Source: Cyanobium sp. CZS48M
GTDB taxonomy: Bacteria; Cyanobacteriota; Cyanobacteriia; PCC-6307; Cyanobiaceae
Assembly (NCBI GenBank): GCA_030373145.1
Contig: JAUCZK010000003.1
Location: forward strand, 1 to 64,000
Length of the DNA stretch: 64,000 nt
Direction: 5' to 3'
Shown here: positions 2,963 through 3,980 of the stretch, one piece after another
How the letters are laid out: every line of letters begins with the position of its first letter
How positions within the stretch are numbered: the first letter of the stretch is position 1
Notes under the pieces: generated by a model
The model's database searches: none
The model's input: the letters and a program-made list of their open reading frames with translations, nothing else
What the model was told of the DNA's origin: nothing
Program-made: the position numbers and the translations under genes

Positions 2963-3244
2963 TCAGGTATTTGCTCCCGTACCATCCAGAGATTTATCAG
3001 GGCAAAGCAACTTCAGTTTGAGGTCGTTGTTGCGGATGCCCCGGTAGAATACCTTCCGGAAGCCAAACTGGCATTTGATGATCCGAAAGGGATGCTCCAC
3101 TTTGGCACGAAAGTGGGCCTTCGCCGTCTCAGTCAGATCCAGAAGCCTGCCCTCTGGTGTCTCTGGAAGCACTCTGCGCTGGCCGGGCTTCATGGCAATC
3201 CTGAACTCAGCATCGCAGTCCTGGACATCGCCTCGTTTCTCGCC

Positions 3245-3934
3245 GGGTAGCCCCGGGGAACTTCCCCCCGAGGATCCCACAGATCCGTACGTGACACTCT
3301 CGCGTCATACGGCTCCTGTTATCCCAACATTGCTGCCATCAACAAGTGATGCCATTGGCTCCACTTGTTGATGGCAGCGCGTTGTTCTTTGAACCACTCG
3401 CACTCCTCCCAGCGAACTGGTTGATGCTTTGGCTCAGTTTGGATAACGCAGCCGCTTCGCTCCAGAGCCATTACAGCTCCTTCAGCACTACTACGGGCTG
3501 CTCCGCCCCTGCCATGGGTATTGGTATTCGCCCTCGTGGTTGTGGCCACTTGTAGCTTTCCCTTAGCACCCCATGTCAGGTTCCCACGTTCCGTATCGAG
3601 GCCTGCGATGAGCTCATGCCGCCTGAACACCGGCTACCGCGTGGACCGTAAGGAGGTAACGTCCCACTCTTCCGGGCACCGCCTACCTGCGCCCGTTTTG
3701 ACAGCTTCTAGAAGACTTTTCGATGCGTCTTCAGCGGTTCGCTCTTGCTCATCTTCTCATCGCTCACCTGACGGATCAAGTCCGCCTTTTCCCCATCGCT
3801 CACCACCACGCCTCTTAAGCGCAGCAGCATGGGGTGGCTTGGAGCCTGCCCCTGCAGGCCGGCACCGGGAGGCCAAACTCCCATCCTCGATACAGTTGCG
3901 TCAGTGTTCAAAGAGAACGTTTGACTCGTAGCAC
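3245..3934 (-). mobile_element. Group II intron without a reverse transcriptase
   Basis: The key evidence is a 34-nt domain V at 3282-3315 (minus strand). It starts GAGCCGTATGAC with the AGC triad, has a GAGA loop of the GNRA type, and returns through GTCACGTACGGATC with the usual bulge; one G-A mismatch weakens the lower stem. A domain VI-like hairpin follows at about 3250-3278 and ends GGGGCTACCC, close to the IS5 3' exon. The 5' end GTGCTACGAG is at 3934. Its 5' exon CTACTT (3935-3940) can pair with AAGTGG near 3546-3551 as an IBS1/EBS1 match with one G-U pair. No reverse-transcriptase or maturase frame exists inside, so mobility would need a helper. The 3' boundary is approximate. Confidence 0.7.
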
Positions 3935-3950
3935 AAGTAGGCGAAGCCTT

Positions 3951-3980
3951 CTGCACAGCAGTGGAACCACTGCTGTGCAG
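3951..3980. repeat. Perfect 14-bp palindrome next to the intron 5' exon junction
   Basis: CTGCACAGCAGTGG and its exact complement CCACTGCTGTGCAG are separated by AA, giving a very strong hairpin. It lies 10 nt outside the CTACTT site at the intron boundary. Part of one arm also encodes the QQWF block of the IS5 transposase, so the second arm probably arose by a rearrangement or inverted duplication. Confidence 0.7.

Follow-up and report, generated by a model that had tools for sequence, protein, structure and literature searches.

On the minus strand of the window (the whole 64,000-nucleotide stretch of Cyanobium sp. CZS48M analyzed here), positions 3936 to 3242 are occupied by a 695-nt group II intron that has no reverse transcriptase (RT) of its own. 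Quite likely it belongs to a mobile family of group II introns in the Cyanobiaceae, as a non-autonomous member without an ORF. Its domain I-VI layout has been kept and the RT gene has gone from domain IV, a deletion shared by copies located at unrelated sites in other genera. The hairpin of a 24-nt dispersed repeat immediately precedes the intron, which lies inside a dead transposase gene that, judging by its protein, we take to be IS5-like. What is unusual is not the missing RT; it is the ends of the family, 5'-UUGYG...GC-3', and its target.

Domains of the intron

An Rfam cmscan of the window gave two matches, both on the minus strand and in the expected domain order: RF01999 (group-II-D1D4-2) at 3882-3766 (112.5 bits, E 2.1e-22, gathering threshold 36), corresponding to the core of domain I (D1), and RF00029 at 3317-3242 (48.6 bits, E 1.8e-6, gathering threshold 40), corresponding to domains V and VI (D5/D6). 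A sequence-only reading of this DNA had already pointed to a group II intron with an AGC triad in domain V. The triad is indeed present, and domain V is accompanied by a domain I; the strand, minus, is a correction to that reading. Domain V occupies 3315-3282, as delimited by Rfam and by comparison of copies. The G of its triad (3313) faces an A (3284, in CGGAUC), where the usual partner is U. This G.A opposition is common to the window intron and RT-encoding relatives, and the pattern was found in at least 119 stretches in genome contigs from several phyla; in viral contigs it was found in 2 stretches versus 61 with the usual U. Because RT-encoding relatives share it and it occurs in several phyla, we ruled it out as a sign of decay. 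Domain VI and the 3' end span 3281-3242 (Rfam and copies), where A 3248 is, by analogy, probably the branch point and G 3243 is the penultimate base. A hairpin at 3378-3332, recognized as a self-inverted match and by alignment with RT-bearing copies, lies in the shortened domain IV, where it replaces most of the RT gene.

As the sequence-only reading had stated, the open reading frames of the window include no RT-like frame within or around the intron. An RT or maturase, which an autonomous group II retroelement encodes, was found neither in the intron nor in the assembly. The other hallmarks of group II introns, i.e. domain I, domain V with its catalytic triad and domain VI, are present. The boundary consensus GUGYG...AY is absent, the intron reading UUGUG...GC; this alone does not exclude a group II intron, because deviations are known.

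Boundaries of the intron

Copies with differing 3' flanks are identical through ..ACCCGGC, and the intron therefore ends at 3242 rather than at 3245, the end originally proposed. The original 5' boundary, 3934, likewise had to be moved, to 3936: the TT before GTGCTACG is part of the insert, so that the first two intron bases are UU (3935-3936), at the place where relatives have GU. Uninterrupted homologues lacking the TT were found at four loci, namely the L012 site, the L014 site, the gene flanking the intron ends on contigs C4 and C8 (the C4/C8 gene), and L048 as compared with L011 and L036; for the first three, the comparison covered 30 fetched loci, 112 of 400 genomes having matched. At the L012 site, in a conserved gene, 13 homologues are two bases shorter, and in 12 of these the gap coincides with the junction TT (..TTC or TAC|AACGAC); in the remaining one, L287, the two-base gap was placed a few bases off the junction. 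For the L014 site a single uninterrupted counterpart, L283, was available, and six rows of the C4/C8 gene that contain the repeat and no intron are likewise two bases shorter. In addition, two RT-bearing introns lie head to tail in genome G204 (L314, around 2900) with the junction ACCCGGC|TTGTGCC. From the uninterrupted homologues and the tandem junction it follows that the intron is UUGUG...GC.

It is very improbable that the intron begins at GTGCTACG and that the TT is exon sequence. This would account for the 15 distinct 5' flanks of the family, which all read ..TT|GTG (TT|TTG in L024), and AGGUAG in the EBS1 loop could alternatively pair with CTACTT. However, the TT is absent from the uninterrupted homologues at all four loci, the second tandem copy begins TTGTG directly after ..GGC, and the relatives L039, L016, L021 and L023 start with GTGTGYC in the same register. 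As far as mobility is concerned, the sequence comparisons refute such a start through the uninterrupted homologues and the tandem copy. The register of these four relatives also led us to drop two other views of the TT, as a 5'-terminal insertion before GUGYG and as untemplated bases added at each insertion. Intron finders relying on GUGYG...AY will place such introns two bases off, as happened in the sequence-only reading.

Pairing with the 5' exon

A D1 hairpin at 3695-3673, CGGGC-GCAGGUAGGCGGU-GCCCG, contains in its loop the sequence GUAGGC (plus-strand positions 3681-3686), which is predicted to pair as EBS1 with six of the six bases of IBS1, GCCTAC (3937-3942). Hairpin and exon pairing are kept across copies, and the homologous loops use the same register: GCCCAA with TTGGGC in L039, GUAGCC with GGCTAC in L014 and, with two wobbles, GCAUGU with ATGTGC in L016. 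The loop of L037 pairs poorly with its own exon. AAGTGG, which had been put forward as EBS1, is unlikely to have this role and was rejected in favor of GUAGGC.

The insertion target

The intron is directly preceded by a 24-nt two-hairpin dispersed repeat (3960-3937, minus strand), the last six bases of which are IBS1. Most 5' flanks in the family end in this element, which reads roughly [C/T]GCTNCGC[G/A]GAAGxCNNNGyCTAC. When up to three mismatches were allowed, the pattern gave 220 matches versus 22 for a reversed control, both summed over listed rows from 28 hand-picked genomes, and it was present in 26 of the 28. Complementarity between x and y holds in 47 of 48 distinct contexts and involves four kinds of pair; this count merges none but identical contexts and includes intron-carrying flanks. 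The element also occurs inside intron copies. Further copies were seen at window positions 74-51 (minus strand), in L041, L042, L048 and others, often within genes. Two near-perfect inverted repeats, one at the edge of the 24-nt repeat (3951-3980) and one in domain IV (3332-3378), look sharpened in the window copy.

Among the 14 aligned rows of the C4/C8 gene shown, eight lack the element and six have the element without the intron. Given these rows, the simplest order of events would be that the element came first and the intron second. At the L012 site the intron lies in ordinary gene sequence lacking the element, and the hairpin at L015 differs in sequence; for this reason a hairpin plus IBS1 seems to be the target rule, with the 24-nt element as a ready-made supplier. 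The target types known according to passages of PMC4424553 are homing sites, terminators and attC; PMC1525189 lists a group II intron of P. putida that is located in REPs in two of nine cases.

ORF-less copies and RT-bearing siblings

A search of 400 genomes of the family with the intron gave matches in 26. The shortened domain IV recurs in six more copies without an ORF (L011, L012, L017, L018, L020 and L038), spread over five other Cyanobiaceae genomes, and this form occupies unrelated sites in several genera. In other relatives domain IV contains an RT gene whose end lies immediately before D5. For the RT of L013, the domains listed are RVT_1 and GIIM and include no endonuclease domain; in NCBIfam it corresponds to group_II_RT_mat (448 bits, cut-off 300). 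Because the ORF-less domain IV aligns with both margins of the RT region, we read it as a deletion within the RT gene. Domain IV of the window intron has four bases more than that of its ORF-less kin, which improve its hairpin.

Several other arrangements were observed among the relatives. At nine loci (L100, L112, L123, L149, L171, L173, L181, L188 and L227) D5 lies only ~510-565 nt behind the D1 anchor, and RT-less relatives therefore seem to be common in this group across phyla. At a contig start, in positions 1-65 of L017, the end of one intron (3') is fused to the middle of a different, ORF-less copy, possibly an intron within an intron. L013 and L036 (both G204) are identical introns with near-identical 5' flanks and different 3' flanks, which makes recombination through the intron likely; both lie antisense in a gene that is presumably IS66-like.

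With the family RT as query, 10 of the 400 genomes had a match at E 1e-30. ORF-less copies occur in six genomes. One of these, G168, combines the ORF-less L012 with the RT-bearing L037 and has an open RT copy; G285 has a C-terminal piece; the genome of the window (G000), G059, G069 and G111 are not among the ten at that threshold. A search of 386 genomes of the phylum at E 1e-60 gave no match, which is not a sign of absence. The assembly of the window's own genome (2.77 Mb, 37 contigs) contains no second RF01999 match and no RVT_1 match; other contigs hold pieces of the family. Contig C15 has a 5' end fused to a maturase C-terminus plus D5, and holds the only match to an RT of the family, a piece of 54 residues; contig C24 has a D5/D6 remnant; and contig C8 starts with a maturase-like C-terminus followed by D5/D6. 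The end of contig C4 and the start of contig C3, i.e. of the window, both lie inside an intron and break off at the same base. Contig-end comparison and flanks identify window positions 49-1 (minus strand) as the 5' end of a second family intron cut by the contig end. The C4 end and the C8 start appear to belong to a single intron, the body of which the assembly lacks. Repeated introns break assemblies at such points, so full-length copies may have been lost from it; that introns run into contig ends suggests assembly gaps as the place of the RT-bearing copies.

Joint change of the first and penultimate bases

The first and penultimate bases of the intron change together in 35 distinct introns, a set found mostly via the D5 pattern CGGATC and thus not a fair sample of group II introns: 17 have U1 with a penultimate G, 14 G1 with A and four G1 with C, with zero exceptions. 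The ends were readable by script in 36 introns, of which L138 (T, A) was removed, given that the locus does not include its 5' end (start -42) and the base had been taken from other sequence; L103, L111 and L150 have no usable 5' end. L190, which the script missed and which is not among the 35, reads TTGTGAACGCG and ..ACCCGGC by eye and agrees with the rule. Hosts of U1 introns include Cyanobiaceae, Actinomycetota, Acidobacteriota, Thermodesulfobacteriota and a Pseudomonadota MAG. An RT search of viral contigs gave four loci, of which two repeat the L252 intron and one adds a new readable end pair (L303, G1 and A).

On the RT protein tree, with 21 sequences of which 19 carried an end-base label, the label requires four changes, and well supported branches force at least three of these. 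Short DNA rows, 37 in number and without L138, gave a second tree with eight changes, at least four of them forced; as one trait had been entered twice there, only the change count of this tree was used. Judged from these trees, the label would have switched independently at least three to four times. A sign test on four supported independent pairs gave p 0.125, where 0.05 is unreachable with four pairs; this test and the change counts 10 and 9 still include L138. As we see it, the weight of the co-switch in these sequences rests on the zero exceptions and not on the sign test.

A contact between the first and penultimate bases is cited in passages of PMC3669008 and PMC4238363. Ends UUGCG..GU are given for UHB.I2 in passages of PMC7923331, and passages of PMC6867995 mention UUGCG as a rare 5' site in plant introns. 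No report of the joint change was found in the literature searched, which left most subscription journals outside. On balance, we favor the view that one of the co-switching lineages has in-gene 24-nt hairpin repeats as an additional class of target and sheds RT-less, trans-mobilized satellites like that in the window. If true, the joint change would supply covariation from nature in favor of a contact for which mutants have been the argument until now. It makes the second-step contact of first and penultimate base testable with natural pairs. At L007 1-344 lies a deletion form that combines a U1-type 5' end with a CGGUUC-type D5, so that two intron lineages may have been joined in it.

Condition of the window copy and its probable supply of maturase

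The 5' part of the transposase gene (4239-3950, minus strand) is frameshifted and is 87.7% identical to a copy on contig C5; the 3' part (3241-2802, minus strand) is 85.0% identical. The C5 copy is open; the window gene lacks 460 bp at the intron and has a broken frame. A transposase rescued by splicing is thereby ruled out, and because the exon context is dead nothing selects for splicing at this site. When the window intron is scored on a consensus fold derived from seven members of the family, 181 of 184 scorable pairs are intact and 3 broken, with gaps at 5. The corresponding figures are 184-187 intact and 1-5 broken for the three RT-encoding members of its subclade, and 178 and 7 for L039; since the fold was built from the same seven sequences that it scores, these numbers show only that the window copy is no worse than its kin.

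It seems unlikely to us that the ORF-less form spread in earlier times and that the copy in the window, its splicing lost, is now just a fossil within a broken IS element, even though the host gene is frameshifted and lacks the 460 bp, other pieces in the genome (C15, C24) are clearly decayed, and the copy lacks one base in D1 and has a few window-only changes. Its three broken pairs compare with one to five in RT-bearing members of the same subclade, and over conserved columns it is 97% identical to L012. A non-autonomous family member is indicated by the ordered Rfam domains, the 181/184 pairs and the six further ORF-less copies; by RT-bearing siblings with RVT_1 and GIIM, one of them alongside an ORF-less copy (G168); and by the uninterrupted homologues at four loci, the tandem junction and the EBS1/IBS1 register. 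Against this stand the dead exon context, the poor exon pairing of L037 and the scoring of the fold on its own sequences. The window copy is a real RT-less satellite of a mobile family and can probably splice with help. The sequence-only reading had left a choice between a maturase elsewhere and decay. A trans-acting maturase is the likelier, because the core is as intact as in RT-encoding relatives, the ORF-less form occurs at unrelated sites and RT genes of close relatives exist; decay fits C15 and C24 better than the window copy.

Splicing and movement would depend on the endonuclease-less RT/maturase of RT-bearing siblings acting in trans, and EBS1 GUAGGC would read GCCTAC at the end of the repeat, where the intron would reverse-splice. 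Against a supply in trans stands the lack of an RT in the window's own assembly and, at E 1e-30, in G059, G069 and G111. It is nevertheless rather likely that the genome is not RT-less and that an RT-bearing sibling between contigs C4 and C8 serves the window copy. The C4 end and C3 start break off in the intron at an identical base, C8 opens in a maturase-like C-terminus followed by D5/D6, and the C4-end and C8-start flanks fit one gene in homologues; on the other hand, C8 shows only a short C-terminal piece, the rest of that RT not being found. Such a sibling would complete the explanation by supply in trans, not oppose it. Repeat-targeted, RT-less copies of this kind would make a clear example, in bacteria, of retroelements that are not autonomous and live off their siblings.

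Comparison with known systems

The 24-nt repeat resembles REP and small dispersed repeat (SDR) elements, which are tiny palindromes with compensating stems found in genes and in other elements, but it occurs in Cyanobiaceae and is used as an intron target. SDRs of Nostoc were reportedly described by Elhai in 2008.

Group IIC introns, according to passages of PMC4424553 and PMC7923331, have an endonuclease-less RT and insert behind terminators or attC hairpins with the hairpin 5' of IBS1, as here; the target of the window family, in contrast, is a 24-nt in-gene repeat. In class C a hairpin directly 5' of IBS1 takes the place of IBS2; the family shares the hairpin before the intron, in most cases with an AGNC/GNCT stem, and may still have an EBS2. 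The class C 5' consensus given in passages of PMC4028801, GUNYGCCNRGCAUGG, is not found in the family, which reads UUGUGYCACGAG. In a PDB search with the family RT, IIC RTs rank first, which is only a hint at class.

UHB.I2, as described in passages of PMC7923331, resembles the window family in its ends, UUGCG..GU, and in lying directly behind a hairpin (attC). Unlike the window intron it belongs to the CL1/IIB class, has its own RT and comes from a hypersaline metagenome; the co-switch of end bases is not discussed in those passages. C.te.I1 and fungal rRNA introns share with our intron a non-standard 5' boundary (passages of PMC4424553), but they splice upstream of an intact GUGYG, whereas here the first base of GUGYG is U. 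Other ORF-less bacterial group II introns treated in passages of PMC4424553 likewise have no RT frame, and close RT-bearing relatives may act on them in trans; what distinguishes the present case is a single domain IV deletion found in five genus groups, in introns with the ends UUGYG..GC.
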